From contig NZ_CP039690.1 of NCBI RefSeq assembly GCF_005144885.1, forward strand, positions 1,798,001 to 1,862,000: 64,000 nucleotides of DNA. Direction: 5' to 3'. This DNA is from Phreatobacter stygius. GTDB taxonomy: Bacteria > Pseudomonadota > Alphaproteobacteria > Rhizobiales > Phreatobacteraceae. The position numbers and the translations under genes are program-made. How positions within the stretch are numbered: position 1 is the stretch's first letter; every line of letters starts with the position of its first letter. The notes beneath the pieces are model-generated. The model did no database searches. It saw only the letters and a list, made by a program, of their open reading frames with translations, and was not told the origin of the DNA. Shown here one piece after another: positions 11,572 through 24,718 of this stretch.

Positions 11572-11768
11572 TGCTTTGTTTCAACCGCCCTTTTATCGCG
11601 GCCCCTCCGCCGGGACCGTAGCGGCGCCTCTCTAACACAGGGATTCGGGTGGGGCAAAAGGAGACGAGGTGCGAATTTGACCATGGCGAACAAGCCGATT
11701 GACGCCTCGTCAGGCGCGGCACCGAACCGTCAACCTTCTCGGCTGCGAATGGGTTGCAGAACCGCCGT

Positions 11769-11785
11769 GGAATTCCTAAAATAGG
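11769..11785. promoter_or_regulatory. Nested dyads directly upstream of the irr start
   Basis: Two overlapping inverted repeats, GGAATTCC and CCTA-AAA-TAGG, end 4 bases before the irr ATG. On the minus strand this reads TTTTAGGAATTCC, which resembles one half of the iron control element bound by Irr (TTTAGAA-N3-TTCTAAA), but the second half is poor. Autoregulation is a possibility only. Confidence 0.3.
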
Positions 11786-11789
11786 TTCA

Positions 11790-12305
11790 ATGACGATCCG
11801 GACACTCATCGACCTCACGCATCACGAGCCGCCACTTTCGGCGGACGGGAAGTTGTCGGCCCAGGAGCGGGTCAGCCTGCTGCAACGCACGGGCTGCCCG
11901 ATCCATGACGTGCGCACCATGCTGCGGGAGGTTGGCCTCAGGCCGACCCGCCAGCGCATGGCGCTCGGCTGGATCCTGTTCGCCAAGGGCGACCGGCACG
12001 TCACCGCCGAGATGCTGTTCGACGAGGCCGCCAAGGCGCGGGTGCCGGTGTCGCTCGCCACCGTCTACAACACGCTGCACCAGTTCACCGAGGCTGGCCT
12101 GTTGCGCGAGATCGCGGTGGACGGATCGAAAGCCTATTTCGACACCAATCTGGCCGATCACCACCACTTCATCGTGGAAGGCGAGACCACCGTCTTCGAT
12201 ATTCCCGGCCCGCATATCGCGGTCGACAAGCTGCCGCAGACGCCGGAAGGTTATGAGGTCGCACGCGTCGATGTGATCGTGCGCCTGCGCCGCAAGGAAA
12301 CCTGA
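11790..12305 (+). CDS. irr: Iron response regulator Irr (Fur family, heme-sensing)
   Basis: 171 residues. It has a heme regulatory motif with C36-P37 (TGCPIHDV), a winged-helix DNA-binding part containing GLRPTRQRMALGW and VSLATVYNTLHQF, and the HHH cluster at 124-126 used for ferrous heme binding in Bradyrhizobium Irr. Irr controls heme synthesis and iron-dependent genes and is destabilised by heme in the HRM-containing type. The ATG at 11790 was preferred to an in-frame ATG 12 codons upstream, because the protein then begins as in known Irr proteins. Adjacent fabA-irr order is common in Hyphomicrobiales as far as I recall. Confidence 0.93.
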   Translation: MTIRTLIDLTHHEPPLSADGKLSAQERVSLLQRTGCPIHDVRTMLREVGLRPTRQRMALGWILFAKGDRHVTAEMLFDEAAKARVPVSLATVYNTLHQFTEAGLLREIAVDGSKAYFDTNLADHHHFIVEGETTVFDIPGPHIAVDKLPQTPEGYEVARVDVIVRLRRKET

Positions 12306-19921: not shown

Positions 19922-20659
19922 TCAGGTTTCCTGGCTCTGTCGGGCCATCCAGCGATGGCGCAGCTGGCCGGCGACCAGCGTCAGGCCAATGACCACGAGA
20001 TAGCCGCGCGTCAGGCTGGTCTGCCACGCGATGAGGCCGGCCCGCGCCTCCGCCGACGGCTGCCGCATGGCCACCGCCAGCGGGCCGACATCGACCTCGT
20101 TGGCCATCCTGAGAAAGCCGAACGCGGCGACCAGCGGCATGGCGACCAGCACGGTGATCAGGGCGGGTTTGAGCCGCCGCGCCCAATCGAAACGCCTGAG
20201 CGTGATCCACAACCCCAGGCAGCCATGCAGCCAGCCGGGCGTCAGCAGGGCCAATTGCCAGCCCTGCGACCCGGAAGCGACCAGCAGCGTCACCACGCGG
20301 CCATAGCTCGAAGGAATATCGAAAAACACCCCGGCGACACGGGTCGCCACCACATGGCCGATCAGCAGGAACGGCAAGGTGAAGCCCGAGGCGAGCCGGA
20401 TGATTTCGATGACGGGCAGGTTCCAGTGGCGGCGCAGGAACACGGTGCGCAGCGCCAGGCCGAAATGGATGGCCGCGGCGCCATAGAGCAGCACCGTGCC
20501 GAGCCGGCTGTGCCAGATCAACACCGCCAGGCCGAGCCCGCGTTCGGCGAGATCGAGGGAGATCACGCCGAGCGCATGGTTGATCAGGTGAGCCGAGATA
20601 TAGGCGAACAACACCAGGCCGGAGGCGAGCCTCAGCCGGCGGATCGCCCGGTCGGTCAC
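19922..20659 (-). CDS. Orphan membrane protein resembling a succinate-dehydrogenase cytochrome b-type anchor
   Basis: 245 residues with about six membrane helices and repeated intramembrane His residues: [49 protein letters not shown] and [14 protein letters not shown]. This pattern resembles the heme-b SdhC/FrdC-like anchor that forms the N-terminus of some rhizobial class III adenylate cyclases. Here it stops before any cyclase or ferredoxin domain. Its start overlaps the CobW stop by four bases (ATGA), so it is translationally coupled to the metal GTPase, an odd pairing. Heme binding is inference. Confidence 0.6.
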
Positions 20660-21735
20660 GCGACGCAGGCCTCGAAGCCGGACTTGATCTTGTCGATCGG
20701 CAGTTCCCGGCCGATGAACACCACTCGGCTCTCGCGCGCCTCGTCAGCCTTCCAGGCGCGCTGGTGGTCGCCGTCGAGGATCATGTGCACGCCCTGGAAC
20801 ACGAAACGGTCCGGGTCGTCCTTGAACGCCACGATGCCCTTGCAGCGCAGGATCTTGGGGCCCTCGACCTGAGTCAGGTCCTGGATCCACGGGAAGAACT
20901 TGTCGGGATCGAGCACCTTGTCGGTTCGGAACGACACCGACTGCATGTCTTCGTCGTGGTAATGCTTCAAGCCGTGGCTCGGATGGTCGCAGTCGTCACC
21001 GGTATGGTCGTGATCATGGCGATGATCGTGGCCATGGCCATGATGATGGTGGCCGTGATCATGGTCGTGGTCATGATCGTCGCGCTCCAGGAAAGCCGGC
21101 TCGATCTCGAGGATCCGCTCCAGGTCGAAGGCGCCGCGTCCAAGCACGGCGTCGAGTTCGACCGCGCATTTCTGGGTCTTGTGCAGCACCGCATAGGGGT
21201 TGATGGCGCGGATCCGCGCCTCGACCTCGCGCAACTGCGCCGGGCTGACCAGGTCGGTCTTGTTGAGCAGGATGACGTCGGCGAAGGCGATCTGGTTCTT
21301 GGCTTCCGGCGCGTCCTTCAGCCGGTCCAGGAGCCACTTGGCGTCGGCGACGGTCACCACCGCGTCGAGCATGGTCTTGGCGCCGACCTCTTCGTCGACG
21401 AAGAAGGTCTGGGCCACCGGTGCCGGATCGGCGAGCCCGGTGGTCTCGACGATGATCGCGTCGAACTTGCCCTTGCGGCGCAACAGCCCCTCGATGATGC
21501 GGATCAGGTCGCCGCGCACGGTGCAGCAGATGCAGCCGTTGTTCATCTCGAAGACTTCCTCGTCGGCGCCGACCACCAGGTCGTTGTCGATGCCGATCTC
21601 GCCGAATTCATTGACGATCACGGCAAACCGCTTGCCGTGGTTTTCGGACAGGATCCGGTTGAGCAGCGTGGTCTTGCCGGCGCCGAGATAGCCGGTCAGC
21701 ACGGTCACGGGGATCTTCTGGAGAGCTTCGGTCAT
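20656..21735 (-). CDS. CobW/COG0523 family GTPase, probable zinc metallochaperone
   Basis: 359 residues, G3E GTPase. Walker A is [15 protein letters not shown] (residues 13-27), the metal-binding CxCC motif is C68-I-C70-C71 in [20 protein letters not shown] follows and LNKTDLV is the guanine-specificity motif. A His/Asp-rich loop lies around residues 218-255, followed by the CobW C-terminal domain. Location directly downstream of the zinc-uptake genes points to zinc allocation, not cobalamin. No Zur-like box was found in the 65-base gap before it, so expression may depend on read-through. ATGA overlap with the downstream membrane protein. Confidence 0.86.
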
Positions 21736-21800: not shown

Positions 21801-22748
21801 TCAGGCTTGCGCCAGCGCACCGCTGATCTGCCCGATATTGTGGCGCATCATGTCGAGATAGGTCGAGGCCGGTCCGTCGGCGGCCGACAGCGCGTCGGAA
21901 TAGAGCTTGCCGCCGACACGCACGCCGGTTTCCGAGGCGATGCGCTGCATGGCCCTGGGATCGGTGATGTTTTCCATGAAGATGGCGGTGATCCGGCCCT
22001 GCTTGATCTGCCGGATGATCTGGCCGAGGTCGCGCGCCGAGGGCTCGGCATCGCTCGCCACGCCGCGCAATGCCACGAACGCGATGCCATAGGCCTTCTG
22101 GAAATATTGGAAGGCGTCATGCGTCGTCAGGATGCGCCGGCGCTCGGCCGGGATCCTGGCCACAGCCGCCTTGATTTCAGCATCGAGCGCATCGAGCGAG
22201 GCCGAATAGGCGGCGGCATTGCCGGTGAACAGCGCCGCGCCGGCCGGATCGGCTGCGACCAGCGCGTCGCGGATGGTCCGGACATAGGTCTTGACGAACA
22301 GGGCGTTCTGCCAGGCGTGCGGATCGTTTTCGCCATGGCTGTGACCATGGCCGTGACCGTGACCATGGCCATGATCGTCTTCAGCCTTCAGCGCGACCAC
22401 GCCGGTGCTTGCGGTGATGACCTTGGCGCGGGTGCCGGACGAACGGATCAGGCGATTGATCCAGCCCTCGAAGCCGAGGCCATTGACGAAGACCAGCTTG
22501 GCCCCGGCGATGGTCCGGGCATCGGCCGGGCTCGGCGCATAGGCATGGGCATCGCTGTCGACACCGACGAGGCTCGTCACCGCCACCCGTTCGGCGCCGA
22601 TCGCCCGCACCAGGTCGGCCAGGATCGAAAAGGTCGCGACCACCGGCATGGGTCCGGCGGCGGCCGGAGCCGGCGCCTGGGCAAGCGCGAGCGGGGTGAA
22701 ACCCGGCGCCAGCGCCAGCGATGACAAGAGCAGGCGGCGCGTGATCAT
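21801..22748 (-). CDS. znuA: Zinc ABC transporter substrate-binding protein
   Basis: 315 residues, cluster A-I metal-binding protein. The N-terminus MITRRLLLSSLALAPG is an export signal with a twin Arg, cleaved near LALAQA. The zinc-type His-rich loop is at about 125-145 (DHGHGHGHGHGHSHGE), followed by DPHAWQN, ILTTHDAFQYF and ENITDPRAMQRIA. The His-rich loop favours zinc over manganese. The start was chosen at this ATG because the upstream in-frame extension lacks signal-peptide features. It lies 22 bases after znuB, with a Zur-like box inside znuB upstream. Confidence 0.92.
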   Translation of the reverse strand: MITRRLLLSSLALAPGFTPLALAQAPAPAAAGPMPVVATFSILADLVRAIGAERVAVTSLVGVDSDAHAYAPSPADARTIAGAKLVFVNGLGFEGWINRLIRSSGTRAKVITASTGVVALKAEDDHGHGHGHGHGHSHGENDPHAWQNALFVKTYVRTIRDALVAADPAGAALFTGNAAAYSASLDALDAEIKAAVARIPAERRRILTTHDAFQYFQKAYGIAFVALRGVASDAEPSARDLGQIIRQIKQGRITAIFMENITDPRAMQRIASETGVRVGGKLYSDALSAADGPASTYLDMMRHNIGQISGALAQA

Positions 22749-22770: not shown

Positions 22771-23640
22771 TCAGGCCTCGCGATGGCGCGCGGGCCAATA
22801 AGTGGGCACCAAACCACCACGCGGTCCGAACACCAGCGACACCGCGTAGACCAGTCCCGCCATCAAGACGATGGACGGGCCCGATGGCGTCGCCATGTTA
22901 TAAGATAACACTAAGCCCGCATAGCCTGAAACCACGCCGAACAGGATCGCAATGCCGCAAAGGGCTGTGACATCGCGGCCCCAGAAGCGCGCGGCAATGG
23001 CCGGAAGCATCATCAATCCGACCGCCAGCAGCGTGCCGAGCGCATGGAACCCGGCCACCAGGTTGAGCACCACCAGGCCGAGGAAAACCATATGGGCCGG
23101 GGCGCCTGCCCGGCTCACCGAGCGCAGGAAACCGGGATCGACGCAGTCGAGCACCAGAGGACGCCAGAGCACGGCGAGTGCGATCAGGGTCACCGTGGTG
23201 ATGCCGGCGAGCAGCAGCAGCGTCGGATCGTCGAGCGCCAGCACGGTGCCGAACAGCACATGCATCAGGTCGACATTGGAGCCGCGCATGGAGACGATGA
23301 TGACGCCGAGCGCCAGCGAGATCAGGTAGAAGGCCGCCAGCGACGCGTCTTCCTTGAGCGCGGTGAAGCGTGCCACGACGCCGGCCGCGAACACCACGGC
23401 AAGACCGGCGACGATGCCGCCAACCGTCATCGGAATCAGCTGCAGGCCGAACACCAGGAAGCCGACAGCGGCACCCGGCAGGATCGCGTGGGCCATGGCA
23501 TCGCCCATCAGCGACATGCGCCGGAGCATCAGGAACACGCCGATGGGCGCGCCGCCGAGCGACAGGGCGACGGCGCCGACCAGGGCCCGGCGCATGAATT
23601 CGAACTCCACGAAGGGCCCGATCAACATGTCATACATCAC
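22771..23640 (-). CDS. znuB: Zinc ABC transporter permease
   Basis: 289 residues, ABC-3 family permease with about eight membrane helices. The coupling region RRMSLMGDAMAHAILPGAAVGF is characteristic. The GTG at 23640 is used here; an ATG lies next to it at 23637. The last ~50 codons contain an unusual AT-rich patch, with two TTA leucine codons (in GLVLSYNM), where a near-perfect Zur operator is embedded. Sits between znuC (11-base gap) and znuA. Confidence 0.92.
   Translation of the reverse strand: MMYDMLIGPFVEFEFMRRALVGAVALSLGGAPIGVFLMLRRMSLMGDAMAHAILPGAAVGFLVFGLQLIPMTVGGIVAGLAVVFAAGVVARFTALKEDASLAAFYLISLALGVIIVSMRGSNVDLMHVLFGTVLALDDPTLLLLAGITTVTLIALAVLWRPLVLDCVDPGFLRSVSRAGAPAHMVFLGLVVLNLVAGFHALGTLLAVGLMMLPAIAARFWGRDVTALCGIAILFGVVSGYAGLVLSYNMATPSGPSIVLMAGLVYAVSLVFGPRGGLVPTYWPARHREA
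22896..22910. promoter_or_regulatory. Intragenic Zur-like box inside znuB, upstream of znuA
   Basis: The site is TGTTATAAGATAACA, a perfect 6-bp inverted repeat with a 3-base centre. It agrees at 14 of 15 positions with the gammaproteobacterial Zur core TGTTATA-N-TATAACA. It lies within znuB codons, about 150 bases before the znuA start, and forces rare TTA codons. It could control an internal znuA promoter. Confidence 0.6.
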
Positions 23641-23651
23641 GAAATCGGCCC

Positions 23652-24416
23652 TCAGGCTGCCACGGCGCAGACCGCCGCATGGTCGTCGAAGGCTTCCGTC
23701 ATGCGCCGCGCCGCCGTCAGGTTCTCCGGCGTCAGCACGTCGGCCGTGCGGCCCCAGGCGATCGGCCGGCGGGCCAGCAGAAGCGCCTGCGGGAAGCTCG
23801 AGCGCACCGTCTCCATGTCGTGCAGGACCGCGATGATGGTGCGTTTTTCGGCATTCCAGCGGCAGACCAGGGCCAGCAGGTCGGCGGTCGTCTTGGCGTC
23901 GATGGCGGTGAACGGCTCATCCAGCAGGATCAATTGGGCATCCTGCACCAAAAGGCGCGCGAACAGCATGCGCTGCAGCTGTCCGCCGGACAGCGTGCCG
24001 ATGATCCGGCTCTCGAAACCGGTCAGGCCAACGGCCGACAGCGCGTGATCGACGGCATCGCGGTCGGCCCGCGACAGGCCGCCAAACAGGCCGGTGCGCC
24101 GCCAAAGGCCCATCGCCACCAGCTCGAACACCGAAATCGGAAAGGACCGGTCGATCTCGGCGGCCTGCGGCAGATAGGCGATCTTGCCACGCCCGGCGTC
24201 GCCCAGCTCGATCGCGCCGCTGAGCGGGCTGATGGCGCCGGCAAGGCCCTTGAGCAAGGTCGATTTGCCGGCTCCGTTGGGGCCGACCACGGCGAGCATG
24301 TCGCCCGCCGCGACCGTCCCGTCGAGATGATGCACCGCCGGGTGGCGGTCGTAACCAAGGGTCAGGTTGCGAAACCGGACGGCGGACATGGCAGGGGATG
24401 ACATCGCGTCTCGCAT
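23652..24416 (-). CDS. znuC: Zinc ABC transporter ATP-binding protein
   Basis: 254 residues. Walker A GPNGAGKSTLLKGL, the Q-loop in IAYLPQAAEID, the signature LSGGQLQRMLFARLL, Walker B LILLDEPFTAID and the switch His in VLHDME are all present. The start at 24416 overlaps the stop of the preceding His-rich protein (TGATG), which supports translational coupling; ATGs at 24404 and 24389 are alternatives. It supplies ATP hydrolysis for ZnuAB-type uptake at the inner membrane. Confidence 0.92.
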   Translation of the reverse strand: MRDAMSSPAMSAVRFRNLTLGYDRHPAVHHLDGTVAAGDMLAVVGPNGAGKSTLLKGLAGAISPLSGAIELGDAGRGKIAYLPQAAEIDRSFPISVFELVAMGLWRRTGLFGGLSRADRDAVDHALSAVGLTGFESRIIGTLSGGQLQRMLFARLLVQDAQLILLDEPFTAIDAKTTADLLALVCRWNAEKRTIIAVLHDMETVRSSFPQALLLARRPIAWGRTADVLTPENLTAARRMTEAFDDHAAVCAVAA

Positions 24417-24643
24417 CAGGCCAGGGCCCAGCCGACAAGCGCCCACAGGACGGCCACGAACCCGGCCGCCACCGCAAGCCGCGCCGGCGCCGACATGAGC
24501 AGGACCGAGACCGGCGATGCGGCGGCGGCCGCCGCGGCGTGGCCATGCGCATGGCCCGCCGGCCCGGGATCATGGGACGCGTGGCTGTGCGCGGGATGAT
24601 CGGGCGGTGAATGAGCGTGTGAAGAATGAACGTGATCGTGCAT
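24416..24643 (-). CDS. Small His-rich single-pass membrane protein heading the zinc operon
   Basis: 75 residues. The first 35 residues contain 12 His, mostly as HxH or HxxH, plus Asp and Ser. An Ala-rich linker follows, then one membrane helix near the C-terminus (LAVAAGFVAVLWALVGWALA). No known family was recognised. It is the first gene after a Zur-like operator and its stop overlaps the znuC start, so it should be made with the transporter under zinc limitation. A role as a membrane-tethered zinc buffer or donor is inference; it could also be a regulator of the transporter. Confidence 0.65.
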   Translation of the reverse strand: MHDHVHSSHAHSPPDHPAHSHASHDPGPAGHAHGHAAAAAAASPVSVLLMSAPARLAVAAGFVAVLWALVGWALA

Positions 24644-24673
24644 GACGCGGGCGCCGTCGTTTCAAGCGATCTC

Positions 24674-24686
24674 GTTATAGTATCAC
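24674..24686. promoter_or_regulatory. Zur-like operator of the zinc-uptake operon
   Basis: GTTATA-G-TATCAC is a 6-1-6 dyad with one mismatch, matching the Zur core GTTATA-N-TATAAC at all but one position. It lies 31 bases upstream of the His-rich protein start in an AT-rich patch. A zur gene is not in the window. Confidence 0.65.
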
Positions 24687-24718
24687 AGAAATGGTGTCCA
24701 GAATGCGCCGTCGTGATG

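Follow-up and report, generated by a model that had tools for sequence, protein, structure and literature searches.

The aztB permease gene of Phreatobacter stygius carries, within its coding sequence, a 15-bp element resembling a Zur operator, which raises the question of whether this element is a selected operator or an accident of the codons and, in the first case, what it would control. It lies in an operon of the window, that is the whole stretch of 64,000 nucleotides analysed, with the following features.

20656..21735, minus strand: CobW-family GTPase gene, next downstream
21801..22748, minus strand: aztC-like gene (znuA in the earlier note), periplasmic zinc-binding protein, first gene 3' of the box; PF01297, AztC best model
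22771..23640, minus strand: aztB (znuB in the earlier note), zinc ABC transporter permease, hosting the box; PF00950 (ABC-3), E 1.7e-52, NCBIfam AztB
22896..22910, no strand assigned: intragenic candidate Zur box, TGTTATAAGATAACA, minus-strand reading TGTTATCTTATAACA; aztB codons 244-249
23652..24404, minus strand: aztA, ATPase; start ATG at 24404 or 24389, by eye
24416..24643, minus strand: short His-rich ORF (MHDHVHSSHAH...), probably membrane-anchored, first gene of the operon; boundaries by eye
24673..24687, no strand assigned: promoter-proximal candidate Zur box, minus-strand TGTGATACTATAACG; 19.6 bits, below the internal box
24674..24679, minus strand: putative -10 of the aztA promoter, TATAAC, overlapping the Zur box
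24695..24700, minus strand: putative -35 of the aztA promoter, TGGACA

Along the minus strand, the operon begins with the short His-rich ORF and continues with the ATPase, permease, binding-protein and CobW GTPase genes. The permease passed the NCBIfam AztB cut-off (283.4 bits for a cut-off of 280) and reached 83.9 bits with ZnuB (cut-off 284), while the best model for the binding protein was AztC, with 298.8 bits, below the cut-off of 350. The names znuB and znuA used previously are thus better replaced by aztB and aztC-like, respectively. The His-rich ORF (24416-24643) presents a hydrophobic end, and a His-rich coding sequence was seen by eye at this place across the genus. An AztD-like gene (224.7 bits for a cut-off of 400) is located outside the azt operon, at locus L002, and a Zur box (L002:1501-1515) separates it there, as a zinc chaperone gene, from a TonB-receptor-like gene of divergent orientation, the latter named by eye. 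The genome also presents a tandem pair of distant ABC-3 permease-like matches (G000:C1:2313289-2314910), perhaps a manganese or iron importer.

The 15-mer TGTTATAAGATAACA at 22896-22910 is, as the earlier note had described, a perfect 6-bp inverted repeat flanking 3 bases. In the ORF 22771-23640, the minus-strand codons around it read GGC TTA GTG TTA TCT TAT AAC ATG. Both TTA codons attributed to the box are real; codon 245 belongs to it, but codon 243 lies outside and varies within the genus between TTA, CTA and TTG. From the end of the box to the ATG of the next gene (22748) there are 147 bases, in agreement with the distance of about 150 bases proposed earlier.

A chance origin of the box was rejected on shuffle, genome-count and independent-base expectations. 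A zero-mismatch TGTTATNNNATAACA occurs once in the one-contig genome of 7.35 Mb, and this occurrence is the intragenic box; about 0.012 perfect occurrences are expected under the independent-base model. For sites with up to 3 mismatches, the expectation in the window is 0.02 (mean of 100 shuffles). Since the pattern with up to 2 mismatches is rarer in this genome than its reversed control (11 vs 22 per strand), weight was given only to sites with 0-1 mismatch, with the exception of 24673-24687, a 2-mismatch site favoured by its position at the aztA promoter. Two further sites of the genome have 1 mismatch, one in the intergenic region between the AztD-like and TonB-receptor-like genes (L002) and one just before a ZigA gene (L003). 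Over the 12 genomes of the genus, 25 sites with at most 1 mismatch were found vs 7 for the control; the internal box accounts for 12 of these, and the others whose loci were inspected precede zigA in six genomes, P. stygius included. At two loci, L146:1501-1752 and L149:1501-1758 (genomes G001 and G009), a 1-mismatch Zur-like box is instead followed, some 40 bp further on, by a cobalamin riboswitch (Rfam RF00174; 122.8 and 125.4 bits), which suggests that zinc and B12 may jointly control the gene downstream of these riboswitches.

The element GTTATCTTATAACATG is present once per genome, in aztB, in the 12 genomes of the family, which all belong to the genus Phreatobacter. The full 15-mer is identical in 10 of the 12, and in the other two a C replaces the first T (coding strand). 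The AT-rich box codons to which the earlier note drew attention are kept in 12/12 genomes, codons 245-248 being identical in all of them, in genes that differ pairwise at a median of 39% (range 12-56%) of their amino-acid-invariant codons. Of the 206 degenerate amino-acid-invariant codons of aztB, 27 are identical in the 12 genomes, and the only ones among these that end in A or T are TAT240, TTA245, TCT246 and TAT247. TTA is present at codon 245 in 12/12 genomes and in 0/591 leucine codons elsewhere in the aztB genes, a reference taken without the box codons and codon 243 (a rare leucine codon, TTA, CTA or TTG, in 12/12); TCT accounts for 4/182 serine codons elsewhere. Codons 245-248 form the sole invariant window among 86 comparable 4-codon windows. 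In 20000 within-amino-acid column shuffles, which ignore relatedness, an all-identical 4-codon window appeared with a frequency of 0.0097, and one with at least 3 A/T-ending codons with a frequency of 0.00015. The synonymous constraint ends at the box, codons 242-243 and 250-252 being variable. The 12 genomes represent one genus and a single origin of the box; within this limit the comparisons show, at the level of sequence evolution, that selection on the DNA beyond the protein holds the box in aztB.

To ask whether the conserved element is a Zur motif, a weight matrix was derived from the 12 zigA boxes alone, ZigA genes being present in 12/12 genomes. For each gene, the site closest to the consensus was taken from the 150 bp preceding it; the boxes carry 0-4 mismatches, and the model is built from sites that were themselves chosen for their fit to the consensus. 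With this zigA-only model the internal box scores 24.7 bits in 10 genomes and 20.6 in 2, and the zigA boxes themselves 21.3-30.8 bits. The internal box ranks first in the 64-kb window (24.7), followed by the aztA-promoter box (19.6) and by a third site at 9.6, and in 12/12 genomes every other site of the locus scores lower. The best promoter-proximal (aztA) site reaches at most 10.6 bits in 7/12 genomes, where the internal box stays at 20.6-24.7; the aztA-site values of two genomes are lower when the site is placed by mismatches, not by score. These low scores should not be over-read, as sequences like TGCTACTATATAACT are similar to two zigA boxes and may bind Zur all the same. The internal box shows one mismatch to the 15-bp proteobacterial consensus TGTTATANTATAACA and shares its core with the 19-bp form AATGTTATAWTATAACATT used for an EMSA-tested Acinetobacter box (PMC3516566). 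A Zur relative is encoded in 12/12 genomes, and Zur was the best of the four NCBIfam models that this protein matched, with a score below the cut-off (116.3 vs 167).

Therefore, the codon conservation in 12/12 genomes, together with a model built from the promoters of another gene and the gene context, strongly support the identification of the element as a Zur box made in the earlier note, and 22896-22910 is very probably a real, selected intragenic operator to which Zur is predicted to bind.

An Irr-type Fur-family regulator is encoded in the window (11754-12305, plus strand; 217.6 bits for a cut-off of 170), and a second Irr in the same genome (locus L119). An Irr site was considered, since an Irr gene is present in the window, and rejected in view of the like boxes at zigA, at the AztD-like/TonB pair and at the azt operon.

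The same data bear on another explanation of the conserved codons, namely that they serve translation or RNA, as a rare-codon pause or a hairpin, and match the Zur motif incidentally. TTA is rare in these genes, codon 243 is likewise a rare leucine codon throughout the genus, and the inverted repeat can fold as a short hairpin. Nevertheless, the conserved block matches the extent of a Zur box, and the model trained on zigA promoters places this block ahead of every other site of the window, which makes this explanation very improbable. A 66-nt RNA around the box is not unusually stable (z = -0.59, with 51/200 shuffles as good), and the RNA hairpin was rejected as cause of the conservation on this value. 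The window gave 0 Rfam matches to known RNA families at the gathering score.

We then compared the permease genes of relatives. The alignment held 110 aztB-type loci, of which 19 belong to the genus (the 12 genomes, 7 loci apparently repeating the same genomes), 11 were dropped for identities below 45% and 80 formed the outgroup. The outgroup comprises 73 loci from the best 80 of 378 relatives (62-71% identity) and 7 others (48-68%), and is partly redundant, with some near-duplicates (L101/L102) and some loci that may be one genome entered twice. A site with up to 3 mismatches was present in 0/80 of these aligned permease genes (73 of them from the best 80 of 378 relatives); the best outgroup site, with 4 mismatches, was found in 2/80. 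In the sample of the order, the motif-coded form was found in 12/397 genomes, all Phreatobacter, and in 0/385 others.

Residue 248 is His in 68/80 outgroups and Asn in 2/80, and Asn in 12/12 genomes of the genus. The Asn248 codon AAC supplies the ATAAC end of the box, as the box requires. The two outgroups with Asn248 carry no box, so that Asn is tolerated without it; in the genus, the box may have brought about the change in the protein. A leaderless start at Met249, whose ATG stands right behind the box, was also considered; Met is found there in 12/12 genomes of the genus and in 0/80 outgroups, conservation within one genus proving little, and this candidate was set aside because the binding-protein gene seems, by eye, to have its own ribosome-binding site.

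Two roles had been suggested in the earlier note, a repressor roadblock and an internal zinc-controlled promoter. We rank a roadblock at the permease/binding-protein junction slightly ahead, as a tentative first choice. In zinc-replete cells, zinc-loaded Zur on the internal box would shut off the distal operon in cis by stopping, within the last 50 codons of aztB, the RNA polymerase coming from the aztA promoter; full-length aztB, aztC and cobW would then not be made, and the internal box would act as a second lock on top of the lower-scoring promoter-proximal box. On the other hand, a polymerase halted inside aztB would produce incomplete aztB messages, and a roadblock of this type may be leaky.

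The second role, which we regard as almost as likely, is that of a weak, zinc-repressed sigma-70 promoter with its -10 in the box, driving aztC and cobW separately and occluded by Zur with zinc, so that extra binding protein would be made in zinc starvation. The position of the box, 147 bp before the binding-protein gene, suits a promoter. The string TATAAC, the -10 of the aztA promoter, is present within the internal box in 12/12 genomes and the extended (TGn) -10 shape TGTTATCTT in 10/12, both strings belonging to the Zur motif itself; the aztA promoters present TATAAC or TATATA as -10. The upstream element is where the internal box departs from the other Zur promoters of the genus, as a coding-strand -35 at the zigA or aztA spacings is absent from it in the 12 genomes. 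TTG at 26-28 nt upstream of the box, on the coding strand, was found in 0/12 (zigA promoters, 12/12) and TGGA at 13-15 nt upstream in 0/12 (aztA promoters, 11/12, with TCGACA in the other), and TTG occurs at other distances, at -30 in one genome, at -21 in one and at -4 in five. The one -35-like hexamer that most genomes (9/12) have in common, TCGGCA or TTGGCA at 30 nt upstream, is too far from the -10-like strings, and the third-base conservation does not reach the -35 zone, except for the invariant GGC239 and TAT240. A consensus promoter scan gave no promoter-like pair at the internal box; its two matches were placed by eye elsewhere, in coding sequence or its start.

The missing -35 is only moderate evidence, because a looser combined score brings the internal box within range of the zigA promoters and above the majority of coding-sequence controls. 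This score sums the hexamer matches to TTGACA and TATAAT (maximum 12) at a spacing of 15-19. The internal box reached 8 of 12 in 10 genomes and 7 in 2, a score of at least 8 being attained by 27/900 control windows from coding sequence; the zigA promoters scored 8 in 9 genomes and 9 in 3, and the aztA promoters 8-10. On this result a small part of our confidence was moved from the roadblock to the promoter. A Beijerinckiaceae locus (L085) with its second Zur box in the intergenic region between permease and binding protein also speaks for a promoter, as does the zinc-repressed promoter upstream of dip0442, within the permease gene, described for Corynebacterium diphtheriae (PMC6711530).

Two other roles would leave the box a selected Zur operator. 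As an auxiliary operator in a DNA loop, it could keep Zur close to the promoter-proximal box, from which about 1.8 kb separate it, in the manner of the intragenic lac O2 at the lac promoter. Two boxes in one operon, of which the promoter-proximal one falls to 10.6 bits or less in 7/12 genomes and the internal one keeps its 20.6-24.7, would fit such an arrangement. The loop is nevertheless improbable, 1777 bp being long for it, and Zur proteins of alphaproteobacteria are not known to us to form loops. It is similarly unlikely that the box acts as a store of zinc-loaded Zur or in the control of an antisense RNA: the antisense strand presents TATAAG in 12/12 genomes, TGGA at -24 in 3/12 and a loose combined score of 8 in 7/12, but it has no conserved -35, TTG being absent in 12/12.

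Evidence on the choice between roadblock and promoter comes from relatives that carry a box at the same junction. Ten loci (L066, L067, L068, L070, L072, L074, L078, L111, L114 and L115) present a Zur-like box inside the binding-protein ORF; they were chosen for having it, from the best 80 of 378 relatives, and comprise 8/8 Phyllobacterium together with L072 and L114, entered as Rhizobiales bacterium. This box, TGTTATACTATTACT with variants (C first, or CTG for CTA), for example at L066:3929-3943, is located 35 nt inside the ORF, in the signal-peptide codons GTT ATA CTA TTA CT. The ATA and TTA codons of the box are invariant, and from codon 21 on they account for only 5/209 and 0/185; codons 1-20, outside this reference, contain one ATA, at codon 2, and four other TTA, which three loci have at codon 11 and one locus at codon 7. 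The parallel box scores 21.1-25.2 bits, with the base frequencies of the GC-rich Phreatobacter, and in 10/10 loci exceeds the box that precedes the ATPase gene, which scores 20.5, or 24.1 in L072. A further box behind the binding-protein gene outscores it in 4/10 loci. Junction sites with up to 3 mismatches were found in 11/73 outgroup loci from the best 80 of 378 relatives, that is the ten and L085, where the site is intergenic. Of six more loci inspected, Consotaella (L073, 12.6 bits) and Mangrovicella (L080, 13.9 bits) present degenerate forms at the same offset, and four present none.

Its location 35 nt past the start codon excludes the parallel box as operator for any promoter whose transcripts would begin behind the box. 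It can block polymerase, or be the downstream operator of a promoter in the end of the permease gene. The Phyllobacterium box is in a different gene and therefore of independent origin from the aztB box of Phreatobacter, which suggests that a second Zur stop at the permease/binding-protein junction arose more than once. By this analogy the roadblock is favoured. The combined proposal remains doubtful as a whole: that at least two alphaproteobacterial lineages independently coded a Zur operator at this junction (in the end of aztB in Phreatobacter and in the binding-protein signal peptide in Phyllobacterium), on codons rare in the remainder of those genes and, in Phreatobacter, with Asn248 in place of a widely conserved His, as a zinc-controlled roadblock that would govern the binding protein apart from the operon promoter.

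Intragenic transcription-factor sites are often mapped, and whether they are functional is debated. The present locus adds evolutionary evidence of a kind that binding maps lack: genus-wide synonymous conservation against codon preference, the replacement of a residue that is widely conserved, and a comparable solution in the adjoining gene of another lineage. One sequence would here encode both a protein and a metal switch, testable by a few synonymous changes that leave the protein unaltered. In a literature search that mostly lacked subscription papers, neither this site nor any intragenic Zur operator of an alphaproteobacterium was seen described.

The Phyllobacterium-type loci resemble Phreatobacter in having, where the permease and binding-protein genes meet, a second Zur-like box that falls within an ORF and on codons rare in the remainder of that gene; they differ in that their box occupies the signal-peptide codons of the binding protein, that of Phreatobacter being in aztB. 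Paracoccus denitrificans shares the Azt-type importer with a Zur box at the aztA promoter, and its 15-bp Zur motif, bound in a zinc-dependent manner in EMSA, resembles the Phreatobacter box; in contrast, the MAST search reported there gave only five motifs, all in promoters, and aztD lies inside the operon, whereas the AztD-like gene of Phreatobacter is elsewhere (PMC5387054).

In Streptomyces coelicolor, of 113 Zur sites placed no more than 500 bp before an ORF, 72 are also in a neighbouring coding region, a likeness to the present box; a codon-level conservation analysis is given for Phreatobacter only, as far as the available part of that source goes (PMC5472717). Bacillus subtilis likewise presents Zur boxes within coding sequences: 35/80 ChIP sites are intragenic, 16 of these with a predicted box, and mutating 4 intragenic boxes raised the expression of fusions 4- to 9-fold. 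The cis effect of these boxes was the same in a zur mutant, and the role of Zur was left unclear (PMC4324032). B. subtilis belongs to another phylum and, for the part of the source available, codon-level conservation or a site in a zinc-importer operon was found only for Phreatobacter (PMC4324032).

Corynebacterium diphtheriae, also of another phylum, has a metal ABC transporter cluster with a predicted Zur site and promoter in the permease ORF before the next gene. There is no intergenic gap between the permease gene dip0441 and dip0442, and in lacZ fusions the 350 bp preceding dip0442 act as a promoter repressed by zinc (PMC6711530). The predicted -10 and -35 are marked there, whereas no clear -35 is found in Phreatobacter, and dip0442 is a putative secreted or membrane protein of unknown function, whereas the gene downstream of the Phreatobacter box encodes a binding protein (PMC6711530).
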